NCBI GenBank assembly: GCA_016182905.1
Contig: JACPFR010000022.1
Span: 1-38,848, forward strand
Origin: Elusimicrobiota bacterium
GTDB taxonomy: Bacteria > Elusimicrobiota > Elusimicrobia > UBA1565 > UBA9628
Length of the DNA: 38,848 nucleotides
Direction of reading: 5' to 3'
Within the stretch, counting starts at the first letter, position 1. Each line of letters opens with the position of its first letter. Below the pieces are notes generated by a model. It was given only the letters and a program-made list of their open reading frames with translations, had not been told where the DNA came from and searched no databases. Of this stretch, positions 2 through 7,785 are shown in pieces. A program made the translations under genes and the position numbers.

Positions 2-2110
2 TCCGCGCTCGCCGTTCCCTCGGCGCCGTCCGCCGTGTCCGCCGCCCCGGCCGCGCCGGCCGCCGCGAGGCCCGCGGCCGCTCCCGTCGCCGCCCGCGCG
101 CTCGCCGCGACGCCGGCGAACGCGTCCGTCAAGGCCGCGGAAGCCGCGAGCCCGACGCCGCTCGGCGCCCTCTCCCGCATCGCCGGCGAGTCCTCCTCCC
201 GGGTCTCCGCCGTCGAGGTCGTCGACGTCGGCCGCATCTTCGACGGCTCCAAGGCCTCCGGCGCCGACGTCCGAAGCCTCTCCCCCGCGGATATGCGCGG
301 CTCCGGCGGGCGCGCCTTCCGCTCCAGCGGCCTGCGCCCCTCCTTCTCTCCGGCCCCGGCTCCCGCCTCCGCCACGCAGACGCAGCGGCGGATGCTCGCC
401 TCGCTGTACCAGGTGGCATCGATCTTCGCCGAGCAGTACGCGCCCCTCGACATGAAGAAGGACCGCTTCCAGCTCGACCTGAAGCGCGAGTACGACGCGG
501 CCAAGGCCGCCGTCCTGGCGAACCCGGAGATCACGACCCGCCAGTTCCAGGACCTCCTGGCGAAGCTGGTGGCGTCGATGCGCGACTACCACGTGAGCAT
601 CTCCTTCCACTCCACCGAGAGCTCCAAGCTCCCCTTCTCGGTCGCCGGCGCCGAGGGCCGCTACTATCTCACCTACATCGACCGCGAGAAGCTCCCGCTC
701 GAGGCCTTCCCGTTCAAGATGGGCGACGAGGTCGTGGCTTTCGCCGGCAAGCCGACCGCCGAGGCCGTCAAGGAGATCGCCGGCCGCATGACGGGCAACA
801 CGGCGGAGACGGACATGCGCATGGCCGAGATGTTCCTCACGAACCGCCGGCGCGCGCGCGGCGACAACGACATCCCCCAGGGCGGCGCGGAGATCGTCAT
901 CCGCAGCAAGGGCCAGTTCTATAAGGTCGTGATGCCGTGGGACTACACTCCCGAGCTCATCGCCCAGGACGTGCCGCTGCGCAACGCCGGCCTGCTCGAG
1001 CCCGAAGGCTTCGCCGGCGGCTCCGCCGGCGCCGTCCGCGCCGGCTTCTTCAACTCCGTGGGCAAGGCCATCGTCGCCGCGGTCCATCCCCTCGTCGAGC
1101 TCTTCAAGAACATGGCCTCCGAGGCCGCCGACAACCCGTTCATGATCGGCGCCCGCAAGAGCTTCGTGCCCCGCCTCGGGAAGGTCCTCTGGCGCAGCGA
1201 CGACGACAGCCACTTCGACGCGTACATCTTCGAGACCAAGGACGGCAAGAAGAAGGGCTACATCCGCATCGCCGCCTACGACGGGGCCTACGCCGAGGTC
1301 CGCGAGTTCGCCAAGATCATCGCCAAGTTCCAGGCCGAGACCGACGCGCTGGTCATCGACCAGGTGAGCAACCCCGGCGGCAGCGTCTTCTACCTCTACG
1401 CCCTCGCCTCGCACCTGACGGACAAGCCGCTGGTCACGCCGCGCCACCGCCTCCTCATCGGCGAGTCCGACGCGCACGAGTCGGCGGACTTCCTGCTGCA
1501 GCTCATGCGCCAGCAGCAGGGCGGAGCCGCCAAGCTGAAGGCGAAGAAGAAGAAGGTCAAGGCGGGCGAGGAGGAGGAGCCGCCGAACGCCGGGGGCTAC
1601 CCCGTCGACGGCAAGTTCATGTCGCTGATGGTCCAGTCCGCGCAGTTCATCCTCAAGACGTTCAACGCGGGCCGGCGCCTCACCGACCTCGTCCACGTGA
1701 AGGGCGTCGCCGACATCGACCCCGCGCCGAAGGCGGAGGAGCGCTACACCAAGCCCATCCTCCTGCTGACCAACGCCTTGGACTTCTCCGGCGGGGACTT
1801 CTTCCCCGCGATCATGCAGGACAACAAGCGCGCCACCATCCTCGGCGTGCGCACCGCGGGCGCGGGCGGCATCGTCAACGCCTACGCCGTCGACCAGTTC
1901 GGCATCGACCATCTCTCGGCGACCGGAAGCCTGGCCGAGCGCCCCGACGGCCGGCCGATCGAGAACCTGGGCGTGACGCCCGACATCCCTTACGAGATCA
2001 CGGCCAAGGACCTGCGCACGGGGTTCGCCGAGTACCGGTGGAAGATCCTGAAGGCGCTGACCGGGATCCTGGAGCCGGCCGCTCCCGCGGCGCCGCAGGG
2101 CGAAAAATAG
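2..2110 (+). CDS. S41-family serine protease, CPAF-like (5' end outside window)
   Basis: The frame is open to the window edge, so the true start and any signal peptide lie upstream; an internal GTG at 35 is probably not the start. The first ~120 visible residues are Ala/Pro-rich low complexity, like the exported protein that begins at the other end of the window. After that comes a peptidase S41 domain. Counting from the GTG at 35, a MRDYHVSISF segment carries His186, a DFSGGDFF segment carries the probable nucleophile Ser585, and RPIENLGVTPD carries Glu643. This order and the Ser-Glu spacing of 58 resemble the Ser/His/Glu triad of chlamydial CPAF. The Lys of classical C-terminal processing proteases is replaced by Arg in GVRTAGAGG. 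A Lys/Glu-rich insertion lies near residues 505-520. It is probably an exported or surface endopeptidase of unknown substrate. The S41 fold is secure; the CPAF analogy is inference. Confidence 0.85.
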   Translation, partial: SALAVPSAPSAVSAAPAAPAAARPAAAPVAARALAATPANASVKAAEAASPTPLGALSRIAGESSSRVSAVEVVDVGRIFDGSKASGADVRSLSPADMRGSGGRAFRSSGLRPSFSPAPAPASATQTQRRMLASLYQVASIFAEQYAPLDMKKDRFQLDLKREYDAAKAAVLANPEITTRQFQDLLAKLVASMRDYHVSISFHSTESSKLPFSVAGAEGRYYLTYIDREKLPLEAFPFKMGDEVVAFAGKPTAEAVKEIAGRMTGNTAETDMRMAEMFLTNRRRARGDNDIPQGGAEIVIRSKGQFYKVVMPWDYTPELIAQDVPLRNAGLLEPEGFAGGSAGAVRAGFFNSVGKAIVAAVHPLVELFKNMASEAADNPFMIGARKSFVPRLGKVLWRSDDDSHFDAYIFETKDGKKKGYIRIAAYDGAYAEVREFAKIIAKFQAETDALVIDQVSNPGGSVFYLYALASHLTDKPLVTPRHRLLIGESDAHESADFLLQLMRQQQGGAAKLKAKKKKVKAGEEEEPPNAGGYPVDGKFMSLMVQSAQFILKTFNAGRRLTDLVHVKGVADIDPAPKAEERYTKPILLLTNALDFSGGDFFPAIMQDNKRATILGVRTAGAGGIVNAYAVDQFGIDHLSATGSLAERPDGRPIENLGVTPDIPYEITAKDLRTGFAEYRWKILKALTGILEPAAPAAPQGEK

Positions 2111-2155
2111 GAGGCGCCGAGACCGGCGTCCACTAGGGGACCGCCTCGGCGCCTC
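2103..2155 (-). terminator. Intrinsic terminator of the candidate ncRNA
   Basis: A perfect 11-bp stem (GAGGCGCCGAG at 2155-2145 with CTCGGCGCCTC at 2121-2111, minus strand) is followed within 3 nt by five T residues at 2107-2103. The T run is the complement of the last Lys codon of the convergent protease gene, so the RNA ends inside that gene. There is no T run on the plus-strand side. Confidence 0.75.
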
Positions 2156-2348
2156 ACAGAACCCGCCCCGAACCCGTAACGCCGGGCGCACCCTCGCGTC
2201 TCGACGGGAACTCCCGCGACGACGCGCCCGATACTACGGCTTGCGACTGCGCTCCGACTGCCACTCACTTCATCGCCGGTTACGGCCTCGGCCTCAACTC
2301 GGCGTCCACTTCGCGGCACCGACTGCACACCGGTTTCGGAGCGGGTAT
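2103..2348 (-). ncRNA. Candidate structured non-coding RNA, ~245 nt, class unknown
   Basis: No credible reading frame fills the 367-bp gap between the protease and the next gene. On the minus strand there is a consensus promoter (TTGACG, 16 nt, TATACT), a predicted start near 2348 and a strong intrinsic terminator ending near 2103. The 5' end (2346-2335, ACCCGCTCCGAA) pairs with 2172-2161 (TTCGGGGCGGGT) over 12 bp with one G-U pair, closing the RNA into a single domain. Internal hairpins are visible, for example CGGGCGC with GCGCCCG around an inner CGGG-AGTT-CCCG. Closed-end architecture is typical of 6S, RNase P and similar RNAs. I do not see the conserved cores of RNase P, tmRNA or SRP RNA, so I leave it unnamed. 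The existence of a transcript is an inference from promoter, terminator and fold. Confidence 0.6.
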
Positions 2349-2354
2349 GCGATG

Positions 2355-2382
2355 AGTATAGCCCCGAAAGCCCGGGCGTCAA
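2355..2382 (-). promoter_or_regulatory. Sigma-70-type promoter of the candidate ncRNA
   Basis: On the minus strand TTGACG (2382-2377) is followed after 16 nt by TATACT (2360-2355). The same two hexamers with the same spacing, and the same GGGGCTATACT run, occur on the plus strand at 15334-15361. This makes it one of the two best promoters in the window. Confidence 0.75.
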
Positions 2383-2477
2383 GACCCACTCACGGTAAAA
2401 AATTCCCGGGTGAAAAGTGTTTCCGCGTTCCCGTCAAGTGATGGCCGCCGTCGTCGCGCGAATGGTAGGATTCGTGC

Positions 2478-3450: not shown

Positions 3451-4203
3451 TCAGCGCCCGGCGGAACCGCCCAGAGCCAAGGTCACGGCGCGAAGCTTCG
3501 CCTGCACCGCGGCCTGATTTTTCGGGCCCATGCGCATCAGCTGCTTCTGCGCCGGGCTCCGGTTTTCCAGCTCCTCGTCGGCGTAGATCCAGCCGATGCC
3601 TTTCTTCCCTTCCTTGAGAAGGACGCCGTCCTCGAGCGGCGGCGTCTCCAGGAGTTCGGCCGCCGCGGCGAGCAAGGTCGCGCGCGCGCCCGCCGTCTTC
3701 TCTCCGAGCTCGCGATGGGCCGCGTCGAACAGCGGCTCCAGCTCCTCGAACAGCTTGGCGGCCGCGCCCGCGTCCACCGCCGAGACCATGGCGGCGAAGG
3801 CGTCGTAGCGCGCGTAGCCGGCGGGATCGACGAAGACCTTGCCGCCCTTCTTGAGGACGGCGAAGCGGCCGCGCGGGGCGAACGCCGCGAAGGTCTCGCG
3901 CGGGAACTTGCCGTTGGCGATCATGCTCGTCGCGGCGGCCAGGCGCGGGATCAGGGACTCCTGCTTGAGCCACTCGACGAAGGCCGGCGCGGAGGACAGG
4001 GAGGAGGCGCGCAGGCGCACGAAGTCGTCGCTCTTGCCCAGCGCGGGAAGGCTCGCGGGCAAGGCGGGCGGAGCCTCGCCCGGCGCCGAGGAGATCCCGG
4101 GCGGAGGGGGAGGGGCTTTGAGGAAGGAGCGCGCGCCGAACAGGCCGACGGCGGCGCCCGCGGCGAGAAGGACGAGCACGATCATCAGTCCGGTATTCTT
4201 CAT
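3451..4203 (-). CDS. DUF3014-family membrane-anchored protein
   Basis: 250 residues from the ATG at 4203. An N-terminal membrane segment (about residues 5-25) and a Pro-rich linker precede a DUF3014 domain, recognised from DDFVR near residue 60, a WLKQESLIPRLAAA segment, DPAGYARYDAF, and a C-terminal SPAQKQLMRMGPKNQAAVQ block. The family is uncharacterised and is usually an inner-membrane protein with a periplasmic domain. I chose the ATG at 4203 over an in-frame GTG at 4215 because GGAGG lies 11 nt before the ATG and directly abuts the GTG. That GGAGG lies in the last codons of the upstream DUF2914 gene, so translation is probably coupled. It is the last gene of the mutS operon. Confidence 0.8.
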   Translation of the reverse strand: MKNTGLMIVLVLLAAGAAVGLFGARSFLKAPPPPPGISSAPGEAPPALPASLPALGKSDDFVRLRASSLSSAPAFVEWLKQESLIPRLAAATSMIANGKFPRETFAAFAPRGRFAVLKKGGKVFVDPAGYARYDAFAAMVSAVDAGAAAKLFEELEPLFDAAHRELGEKTAGARATLLAAAAELLETPPLEDGVLLKEGKKGIGWIYADEELENRSPAQKQLMRMGPKNQAAVQAKLRAVTLALGGSAGR

Positions 4204-4211
4204 GTTCAACC

Positions 4212-5294
4212 TCACCTCCAGATGATACGCGTTCGGCGGGGTAAAACTGACGTGTCCGGCGTAACGTTCAGATGAATGCGCCCGAGCTCGCGCCCGTCCG
4301 AGGTCACGACCTCGACCCGCCAGCGCCCGGGCTTGTGCTTCGCCTTGGCCGTGAACCCGCGCCAGCCCTCGTCGCGCCCGCCGGTGATCGGCAGGGGGAT
4401 GACCTCGGGCTCGCCCCAGCCGCCGGGCTCGCGGAACCGCCAGTGGACCTCGAGGCGCTCGCGGAAGTTCGTCGGGGAGAACACGCTGATCCAGCAGTAG
4501 ATCGCGTCGCCCGGGCGTGCGAGGAAGTCCTGGTCGCCGCGCTGCCAGAACTTCCAGCGCGGCCGCGTCGAGGTCAGGGCAAAGCGGCCGCCGTCGCGGC
4601 GCACCTCGTGGTAGACGCCGATCTCGGAGAGCGACAGCGGCACCGGCGGGATGACCTTGGCGAAATACAGGACGGCGAACAGGGCGGCGACCGCGGCGAA
4701 GGGATAGACCACGTGCCGGCGGACCTCCCGCTCATGATCGGGCAGGCGGGCTTGGAGCCTCCACGACAGGACGACGACGCAGGCCGCCGCCGCGGCGAGG
4801 GAGCCGAGGAAGGGCAGCGCGCCGATGCGGCCCATCAAAGTCGGGACCAGATAGGTGAAGTAGGAGACGAGGCACAGGCTGAACAAGGTCGTGCGCAGCA
4901 AGGTACCCGAGCTCTCGAACGGCTTGAGCTCGTTGACCGCGAGCAGGGCGGCGAGGATGCCCAGGAATATGAGAGAAGCGCCCATCGAGGCGCTCTTGAA
5001 GTAGAACAGCGTGTAGATGTTGAGCAAGGTCCCGAGCATGAAGTGCGTCGCGCCCGCGTGATAGCGCCACGCGGTCTTGAGGCGCTCGGGCGGGACGAAG
5101 CCGCCGTGGCGCTCGCGCAGCTCGAGGCTCGTGAACAGGGCGCACAGCGAGAGATAGACGGCCTGATGGATGATGTTGTGGAGCTTGTCGATGCGCCCGA
5201 CCGCGAGCGTGTCGAACAGGAAGCCCGCGGCGAAGAAGCCCGCGGTGCAGGCCGGCTCGTGGTCGCGGTAGAAGGCCTTCGCGCGCTCGATCAT
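4212..5294 (-). CDS. DUF2914-family multi-pass membrane protein
   Basis: 360 residues. About seven transmembrane segments fill residues 10-245. They are followed by a soluble C-terminal DUF2914 domain, seen as paired Trp-rich beta segments (CWISVFSPTNFRERLEVHW, RGFTAKAKHKPGRWRVEV, GRELGRIHLNV). DUF2914 domains are of unknown role and probably bind a ligand or partner outside the membrane. The ATG at 5294 overlaps the stop of the upstream methyltransferase as ATGA, which fixes this start over longer in-frame possibilities. The downstream DUF3014 gene begins 8 bp after its stop. Co-location of the two families suggests a shared envelope role; this is inference. Confidence 0.8.
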   Translation of the reverse strand: MIERAKAFYRDHEPACTAGFFAAGFLFDTLAVGRIDKLHNIIHQAVYLSLCALFTSLELRERHGGFVPPERLKTAWRYHAGATHFMLGTLLNIYTLFYFKSASMGASLIFLGILAALLAVNELKPFESSGTLLRTTLFSLCLVSYFTYLVPTLMGRIGALPFLGSLAAAAACVVVLSWRLQARLPDHEREVRRHVVYPFAAVAALFAVLYFAKVIPPVPLSLSEIGVYHEVRRDGGRFALTSTRPRWKFWQRGDQDFLARPGDAIYCWISVFSPTNFRERLEVHWRFREPGGWGEPEVIPLPITGGRDEGWRGFTAKAKHKPGRWRVEVVTSDGRELGRIHLNVTPDTSVLPRRTRIIWR

Positions 5295-5938
5295 CGGGCC
5301 GGGGGTGGAACGGAGAACGGCAGGCGGTCCTTCGCTCCGGGCGAGGCCGGGCCGCGGTCGTACACGCTGATCTGCTCGGCCATCCACATGTAGGGCGGGC
5401 GCGCGGCGGTCAGAGCGGTCAGGATCCGGCCGGTCTCGCGGCGGTTATAAGAGAATCCCTTCGCGACGAGCCTGGAGACCCAGTAGCGCTTGGGCTGCTC
5501 GTTGACGTGGTGGTGTCCGCCCTGGTTGGGCTGGGCCGCCGACAGGACGAGCCGGTCGCTGAAGCCCAGGAGGTTGTCCAGGAACGCGTCCGACAAGGGC
5601 TCCGGGATGTGCTCGGCGACCTCGAGGCACAGCGCGAGGTCGAACTTCCCCCAGACGTTCTCGAACGGCGCGGTGAGGTCGCGGACGTGGAACGGGACCG
5701 GGTAGGAGAGCTCGGGAGGCGGGACGACGCCGTCGATGGCGAGGACCTCCACCCCTCTTTTGGCGAACAGGTGGCTGTAGACCCCGCAGCCGGCCCCGAG
5801 GTCGACGAGGCGCTTCGGCCGCAGGCGCTCGTGCAGGACGCCGGCGATGACCTCGGCCGAGCGGACGTACTTCTCGTGGCCCGGGCCCCACTCCCCGAAG
5901 AAGGCCCGGTCGTAGATCCGGTCGAGGTCGGGCATCAT
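5291..5938 (-). CDS. Class I SAM-dependent methyltransferase
   Basis: 215 residues. The SAM-binding Rossmann fold shows motif I (VDLGAGCG, residues 45-52), an acidic residue at the end of beta 2 (LAID, Asp69) and a motif near residue 105 (FDLALCLEVAEHIPE) typical of the Methyltransf_11/23 type. A His/Asn-rich stretch (GGHHHVNEQPKRYW) around residue 140 may shape the substrate pocket. Similar proteins modify small molecules, sugars or lipids, so the substrate cannot be named. The start is one of two tandem ATGs (5938 or 5935) with only a weak GGGA upstream. It follows mutL by 33 bp and its stop overlaps the DUF2914 start, so it belongs to the same operon. Confidence 0.85.
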   Translation of the reverse strand: MMPDLDRIYDRAFFGEWGPGHEKYVRSAEVIAGVLHERLRPKRLVDLGAGCGVYSHLFAKRGVEVLAIDGVVPPPELSYPVPFHVRDLTAPFENVWGKFDLALCLEVAEHIPEPLSDAFLDNLLGFSDRLVLSAAQPNQGGHHHVNEQPKRYWVSRLVAKGFSYNRRETGRILTALTAARPPYMWMAEQISVYDRGPASPGAKDRLPFSVPPPAR

Positions 5939-5971: not shown

Positions 5972-7785
5972 TCACGCGAGAGGCACGGCTCCGGGGCGCT
6001 GGAAGCGGCGCGCGAGCTCGTCGCGGTTGAGCGACAGCATCGCGCGGCGCCCGTGCGGGCAGGCCGAGCCGTCCTTGCAGTCGCGCAGCGCGTCGAGGAG
6101 CTTGTAGGCCTCCTCCTCGCCCAGGCGGTCGTGCGACTTTACGGCGGCCTTGCACGCGATCGTCGCGGTGACGTCGTGCTTCAGCCGTTCGGCTTCGGCG
6201 ACGGGGTCGGAGAGGGCGTCGATGACGCGGTGGATCAGCTTCTTGACGTCTTCGGCTTGATAGAAGAGCGCCGGCACCGCCGTCACGTGCAGCCCGTTCT
6301 TGCCGAAAGGCGCGACCTCGAAGCCGATCTTATGCAGCCGGTCGGCTTTTTCCAGAACGGCCCTCACGGCGGACGCCGGAAGGTCGACCGGGATCGGGAT
6401 CATCAGCTTCTGGGACTTGGCGCCGCCGGCCTCGATCTCGCCCAGCAGCTTCTCGTACAGCACGCGCTCGGCGGCGGCGTGCTGGTCGAGGATGAAGAGG
6501 CCGCCGTTGGCCTCGAAGACCATGTAGCTGCGCTCGATCTGGCCCACGTAGCGGAAAGGGGGGGTGTACCAGACGGGCGCGCCTTCCGGGGCGCCCATCG
6601 CGACGGCGGAGCTGAGCTTGAGCTGCTTGAAGTCCTCGGGGATGAAGCCTCGACCGCCGAGATAATAACCGTCAGGATTCGGCGCAGCATCCGACGACTT
6701 CACCGCCGAATCCACCGGCGACGGGGCGTCGGCGACGACCTGACTCGTCGCCGCCACTTCGAGGGTGATGGGAGCCGCGGCTTTGGCCTTGGCGAGCGCG
6801 GAGGCGACGAGGCCGGAGACGATCTCGAACAGCTCGCCGTCCTTCTTGAAGCGGACCTCGCGCTTGCCGGGGTGGACGTTCGCGTCGAAGGCGTCGGGGT
6901 TGAGCTCGAGCAGGGCCACGCACACCGGCTGCTTGCCCGCGGGGCGGTGCTCGCCGTAGGCCTTGTACAGGGCCGTGTTCAGGATCTTCGAGGACACGGG
7001 GCGCTTGTTGACGAAGAAGTACTGGAAGCTGCGCGAGGACGGCATCTTGTCGAACGGGGAGACGAGCATGCGCACGCGCACGCCGGGACGCTCGACGTCG
7101 ATGGGCAGCAGGCCGCCCGCGAGGTCGTCGCCGAGCACGGCCGCGGCGCGCAGGTCGAAATCGGTGAAGAAGTCCCCCGAATCCTCGGGCTCGAAGCGCA
7201 GGACCTGGCGGCCCTCGGACTTATAGGTGAAGCGCACCGACGGGTTGGCCAGCGCGGCCTCCTCGATCACCGCGGCCAGGCGCGAGCGCTCGGAGCCGTC
7301 GGACTTGAGGAACTCGAGGCGCGCGGGCGTGTTGTAGAAGAGGCTCTTGACGAAGACGGTCGTGCCCGGGACGACGGGGGCGGGGCCGTTGGTGATCTTG
7401 CCGCCCTCGCTCGTCACGCGCCAGCCGGTCTTGGAGTCCTTCTGGGCGCTCGTGACGGTGACCTTGGAGACCGCCGCGATGGCGTACAGGGCCTCGCCGC
7501 GAAAGCCGAAGGTAAGTAATCGATCTAAATCTTCAAACGCCGATATTTTGCTCGTCGCGTGGCGCTCGAGGCAGATCTTCACGTCCTCGGCGTCCATGCC
7601 CACGCCGTTGTCGGACACGCGCAATGACGTTTTCCCGGCCCCGAACACCTCGACATCGATGCTCGTCGCCTGGGCGTCCAACGAGTTCTCGATCAGTTCC
7701 TTGAGCAGGGAAGCCGGTCTCTCGACCACCTCGCCGGCGGCGATGCGGGAGAAGACCTCTTCGGGGAGGCGTTGGATGATGGGCA

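Follow-up and report, generated by a model that had tools for sequence, protein, structure and literature searches.

What is encoded on the minus strand at positions 2103–2387 of this Elusimicrobiota contig, where a sigma70 promoter, a 12-bp end pairing and a 3′ hairpin of 13 bp followed by a T run occur together? The DNA analyzed (hereafter the window) spans 38,848 nucleotides of contig JACPFR010000022.1 (assembly GCA_016182905.1). The sigma70-type promoter, TTGACG-16-TATACT (2355–2382, minus strand), is the sole promoter-like site within the surrounding 2 kb (0.1 expected), and a promoter of the TTGAC...TATANT type is found in 46 of the 47 homologous copies, the exception being L072. The spacing from the –10 box, together with the homologues, suggests that transcription starts near 2348 and yields an RNA of about 246 nt (2103–2348, minus strand), which as a whole has a folding z-score of –3.6 against shuffles. 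A first-pass annotation had proposed the promoter, a length of about 245 nt and 12 bp of pairing between the RNA ends, and all three hold; the pairing consists of 12 contiguous pairs, including one G–U. The same annotation placed the RNA in a gap with no coding sequence. Open reading frames do run across the region, but the homologues in close relatives differ by insertions and deletions that are not multiples of three, and a protein-coding reading was rejected for this reason.

A conserved GGGTC element lies ahead of the –35 box, and the conserved stretch includes the box itself (GGGTCTTGACG; 2377–2387, minus strand). Most homologues have GGGTC or GGGCC ahead of TTGAC. The GGGTCTTGAC motif was considered as a private control site of the RNA and rejected, since a c-di-GMP-I riboswitch and probable coding genes have it upstream as well; the GGGTCTTGAC/GGGTC motif is a general strong-promoter style of the order. 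A c-di-GMP-I riboswitch with this promoter style is present in the window's own genome (L086, 1553–1634; G000:C1, near 15402). Two further loci (L089 and L104; G057:C55 and G054:C79) carry a second orphan small RNA of ~95 nt, apparently unrelated, just after GGGTCTTGAC...TTATACT. It has the form CCGGCCUUAACUAGCUAUCUU...AAGAUAGUUGGUAAGGCCGG followed by a U-run, and no Rfam match to it was found.

The sole part common to every copy is the 3′ hairpin (2111–2155, minus strand). It is built of a 13-bp stem, a 1 × 4 asymmetric internal loop (G/GCCG), a 4-bp GUCC/GGAC tip and a hexaloop, and its folding z-score is –5.0 against shuffles. Covarying homologues, proposed earlier as a check, do exist: in a 30-row alignment of the hairpin, 98.2% of cells are paired and both sides have changed in 10 of 17 pairs. 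The covariation score is 0.368, compared with 0.172 for shuffled alignments (0 of 500 shuffles equal it) and at most 0.113 for slid controls. Because the G–U pairs of the stem carry their G on the 5′ arm, the minus strand is the folding strand. Within the genus, 9 of the 13 stem pairs are invariant, and the sequence of the apical loop differs between genera. By conservation and covariation, the presence of a predicted structured RNA gene is confirmed, far above chance.

The terminator had been described as an 11-bp stem with a T run. The hairpin and the T run are present, but the stem has 13 bp, and that description omitted both the conserved asymmetric internal loop and the second, 4-bp helix. 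It had further been suggested that the terminator borrows the last codons of the convergent protease gene, which encodes an S41-family peptidase with a PDZ domain (35–2110, plus strand). This is true of the U-run (2103–2109, minus strand), which overlaps the end of that gene, but the hairpin lies wholly behind the stop codon. Of 46 copies, 35 have at least five T among their last 10 nt and 3 have fewer than four; L013, L015 and L080 keep the hairpin and have no U-run.

Upstream of the hairpin, the 5′ domain of the window RNA is closed by helix P1, in which ACCCGCUCCGAA (from 2346) pairs with UUCGGGGCGGGU (to 2161) through the 12 contiguous pairs and two more beyond a mismatch. From the fold and the alignment, its 5′ arm is ACCCGCUCCGAAACC (2332–2346, minus strand) and its 3′ arm GGGUUCGGGGCGGGU (2161–2175, minus strand). 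The internal hairpin P2, GCCGR...GGC-YGAG-GCC...AACCGGC (2274–2306, minus strand), is marked by invariant columns with 96.7–100% of cells paired, and its YGAG loop is retained throughout the genus. A further internal hairpin seen in the alignment, P3 (CGCGUC...GACGCG; 2195–2226, minus strand), is variable and deleted in L010, L016 and L017. P1 and P2 are kept among the homologues, and P1, P2 and the 3′ hairpin together contain six pairs changed on both sides. A long-range pairing of P2 with the 3′ strand (CCGUAAC/GUUACGG) co-varies in some rows (L011, L014 and L016); we do not claim it, as it is broken in L012, L013, L015 and L017. The long form in genus g22 has a near-invariant P1 of 17 bp (GUCCUGAGUCCGG/CCGGACUCAGGAC) and an outer helix whose arms, judged by eye, change together.

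The 5′ domains also show a six-nucleotide periodicity, with a summed z of 8.7 over ten representatives. The signal is clearly distinct from the three-base periodicity of coding controls in several representatives, is indistinguishable from a three-base signal in L080, and is absent in L012 and L056. Periodic domains, such as window positions 2160–2340 (minus strand), L070, L011 and L016, consist of hexads like GNNGNC. The top over-represented k-mers of the copies are GCAGUCG (the most frequent heptamer), GUCGUCG, GAAGUGG and similar sequences, and in L053 the 14-mer CGTTCGTCGCCGTT is repeated in 7.6 tandem copies. It is possible that this periodicity marks repeated binding units.

Homologues are present in most genomes of the genus, where a DNA search recovered them at varying extent, and also across the order. 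Measured from the –10 box through the hairpin, those of the same genus span 175 to 262 nt, apart from one 76-nt variant. The hairpin model R1 matches 30 of the 56 genomes of the order, and the broader model R2, built from 30 sequences, matches 34 of 341 genomes of the phylum. When the weaker phylum matches were inspected singly, those in G228, G035 and G033 proved genuine and those in G298 and G045 unconvincing; all R2 matches that survive inspection fall within the window's own class. Scanning named genomes with a pattern gave 26 stretches. The titles of 25 mark them as MAGs of Elusimicrobia or Elusimicrobiota, and every identified carrier belongs to the Elusimicrobiota. No copy is detectable in several genera of the family, so the RNA is not essential across the order.

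The anatomy of the family was compared in the 47 copies, nearly all of which were located by their hairpin. In ten of them the hairpin begins ~9 nt after the –10 box, leaving the hairpin alone (L060, L073, L075, L079, L080, L105, L145, L146, L149 and L150). A short class has a spacing of 29–54 nt (L018, L076, L151, L055 and L058), and a long class one of 128–282 nt, mostly closed by P1. In many genomes the gene adjoining mutL is hairpin-only and ~57 nt long; a 5′ domain is optional, can reach about 280 nt and in long members is closed by a helix of 12–17 bp. A divergent member behind mutL in another family (L020) shares the same architecture, with a promoter, a hairpin and a bulged 3′ hairpin carrying GUCC/GGAC.

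RNase P RNA, tmRNA, SRP RNA, a tRNA-like RNA and Y RNA were each considered and set aside. Rfam gives no match at gathering score anywhere in the window, and at E values up to 10 it gives chance matches only. The earlier remark that the RNA resembles neither RNase P RNA, tmRNA nor SRP RNA is borne out, the corresponding models being silent in the window; the tmRNA of this genome (RF00023) lies elsewhere (G000:C9:169390–169747). ARAGORN reports no tRNA-like structure at the locus. Y RNA (YrlA, bound by Rsr/Ro) is similar in its long helix formed from both ends and its modular internal domain, but a TROVE/Rsr protein occurs in just 1 of the 56 genomes of the order and not in that of the window (G000). 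With strong covariation, no Rfam match and occurrence in a single class of one phylum, the suggestion that this is a new class gains support: on comparative evidence, it is a new family of predicted small RNAs, confined to one class of Elusimicrobiota and apparently encoded by a free-standing gene.

For the function, we tentatively favor, at somewhat less than an even chance, a stable RNA gene whose bulged hairpin would be both a terminator and a protein-binding module, acting in trans. Comparison of the copies shows a strong conserved promoter ahead of an RNA whose indispensable part is the 3′ hairpin, with its internal loop of ~1 × 4 and its 4-bp tip. This hairpin could serve as an intrinsic terminator and as a bulged-helix site for an RNA-binding protein. 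The RNA may then hold or titrate that protein in trans, in a CsrB- or 6S-like mode that does not imply membership in either class, and the 5′ domain may add further binding sites or stability. We place the function in the hairpin because the hairpin-only genes begin it within ~9 nt of the –10 box. We favor a protein-binding module since the minimal gene consists of nothing but the hairpin and a plain terminator needs no internal loop; the loop is retained across genera although it is unneeded for termination. The copies that keep the hairpin without a U-run likewise appear to support a protein module. Conversely, the invariance of the stem within the genus exceeds what a shape-recognizing protein should need, and the genera with no detectable copy also count against this reading.

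The RNA resembles the protein-titrating sRNAs of the CsrB/RsmY type, among them a duplicated csrB (PMC6262261), in being a free-standing gene with dispersed sibling copies in one genome and, in its long members, repeated motifs in a folded domain. It differs in having no shared sequence or Rfam match, in a repeat that is GCAGUCG/GNNGNC-like instead of GGA, and in a common part that is a single 3′ bulged hairpin. The GGA motif is absent from the top over-represented k-mers of the copies, a count in which loops were not treated separately.

Alternatively, the RNA could be an Hfq-independent sRNA that base-pairs in trans. In this case an unpaired stretch of the 5′ domain, such as the YGAG loop of P2 or GGCGUUACGGG, would pair with target mRNAs, and the 3′ hairpin would be a stabilizing terminator. 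A small free-standing gene with its own promoter and terminator suits this proposal, as do the invariance of the YGAG loop and the conservation of GGCGUUACGG in the genus. Multi-copy sibling sRNAs are also an established pattern. However, in the hairpin-only copies a free seed could be no more than a few nucleotides long. An Hfq-dependent sRNA was rejected: Hfq was found in 0 of the 56 genomes of the order, and five control genomes were positive. Antisense pairing of the Hfq type is disfavored because of this absence and because the apical loop varies between genera. We consider a base-pairing role rather unlikely.

The genomic position of the gene suggests a different explanation. In the window, the 3′ part of mutL (5984–6550, minus strand) is co-directional with the RNA and lies 3.6 kb upstream of it; a DUF2914 protein is encoded between the two (4212–5387, minus strand). 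In several genera the RNA gene comes immediately after mutL and shares its strand; the convergent gene opposite varies and encodes a QueE-like radical SAM protein, a TPR protein or an epimerase. Among the copies inspected, the hairpin usually adjoins the stop codon of the convergent gene, whatever that gene is, and lies just beyond it. The locus may be a promoter–terminator insulator, in which a short dead-end RNA between convergent genes ends in a bidirectional terminator hairpin and is itself inert. The hairpin-only copies, which are promoter plus terminator and nothing else, agree with such an arrangement. It leaves unexplained the conserved asymmetric loop, the strand bias of the G–U pairs, the long 5′ domains and the hairpins that lack a U-run, and we regard it as quite unlikely.

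The gene has also been dispersed. Genomes of g22 contain up to six copies, and paralogues within a genome align only from ~5–18 nt before the –35 box to ~2–12 nt past the hairpin. Their identity reaches 98% over 140 bp in G053, 91% over 271 bp in G054d/e and 87.5% over 265 bp in G058a/b. Two G053 copies share an identical 130 bp that starts with ATTGGGTCTTGAC and runs through the T run, amid unrelated flanking genes. On G053:C12 (L076), identical copies lie near 1420–1550 and 4130–4260, 2.7 kb apart, and one is flanked by an AAA_14/DUF4143 gene. Because the similarity of paralogues stops at promoter and terminator and their flanks are unrelated, the gene behaves as a cassette. These alignments show that in one genus the putative gene has multiplied as a discrete promoter-to-terminator unit.

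Such sharply bounded copies (G053a/b, G054d/e and G058a/b) could point to a non-autonomous mobile element of the REP or IS200/IS605-like kind, whose hairpin a Y1-type transposase would recognize as single-stranded DNA, the promoter being carried along. IS200/IS605 and REP elements typically have a bulged hairpin at their ends, and the present copies are likewise intergenic, dispersed and bulged at one end. At the mutL/queE junction, G004 and G018 carry the RNA gene, whereas G050 and G019 have none and the two stop codons nearly touch; QueE of the latter genomes is orthologous, being 58–59% identical to that of G004. This pattern fits both loss and insertion. Against mobility, a reading of the boundary sequences revealed neither a 5′ hairpin nor terminal repeats that every copy shares, one copy per genome is usual, and the promoter is conserved. 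The recurrence of the place behind mutL across families of the order suggests vertical descent instead. No copy was found in viral contigs, and a phage origin was rejected on this ground. A mobile element of this kind is, in our view, very unlikely. There is also a slim chance of a self-dispersing cassette of ~55–330 nt, an exact promoter-to-terminator mover that would land harmlessly behind stop codons, gain or lose its period-six 5′ domain, and have taken on a global regulatory role in a class devoid of 6S RNA.

The first-pass annotation also raised a divergent 6S-type RNA, which here would be the class's replacement or relocated 6S, binding RNA polymerase. Of 199 Elusimicrobiota genomes, 55 contain a match to Rfam 6S. 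All 55 belong to other classes, and the window's whole class has none; this absence keeps the idea alive. In sister classes, 6S follows two small genes whose position suggests zapA and its neighbor, and in L182 it precedes a gene that is presumably rarA-like. In the window's order, a rarA-like AAA+ frame comes immediately after the Pfam ZapA genes, with no gap (L189–L206, compared with L182–L187). Since 6S is missing from the class and this site is empty in the order, the class appears to have lost or moved its 6S. The long members, of 180–260 nt, recall 6S RNA (RF00013) in length, closing helix and sigma70 promoter. However, the RNA obtains no score with the 6S model and sits behind mutL or elsewhere, not after zapA. 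In its consensus, the 3′ hairpin stands apart from P1 and from the internal hairpin P2, and there is no single long rod with a large central bubble. Complete copies of 57–105 nt without a 6S-like domain, and the multiple copies per genome, make it unlikely that the RNA is simply 6S, and we hold even a divergent 6S to be highly doubtful.

The locus thus represents an RNA family supported by covariation and missing from Rfam, in the little-studied phylum Elusimicrobiota; a literature search with the terms used found no work on RNA families of this phylum. The minimal bulged hairpin of ~57 nt with its own promoter is a small and directly testable candidate binding module, and the sharply bounded duplicates could be used to study the multiplication of small-RNA genes. 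The loss or relocation of 6S leaves room for a replacement RNA, and a class with no recognizable 6S RNA makes the question of such a replacement testable.
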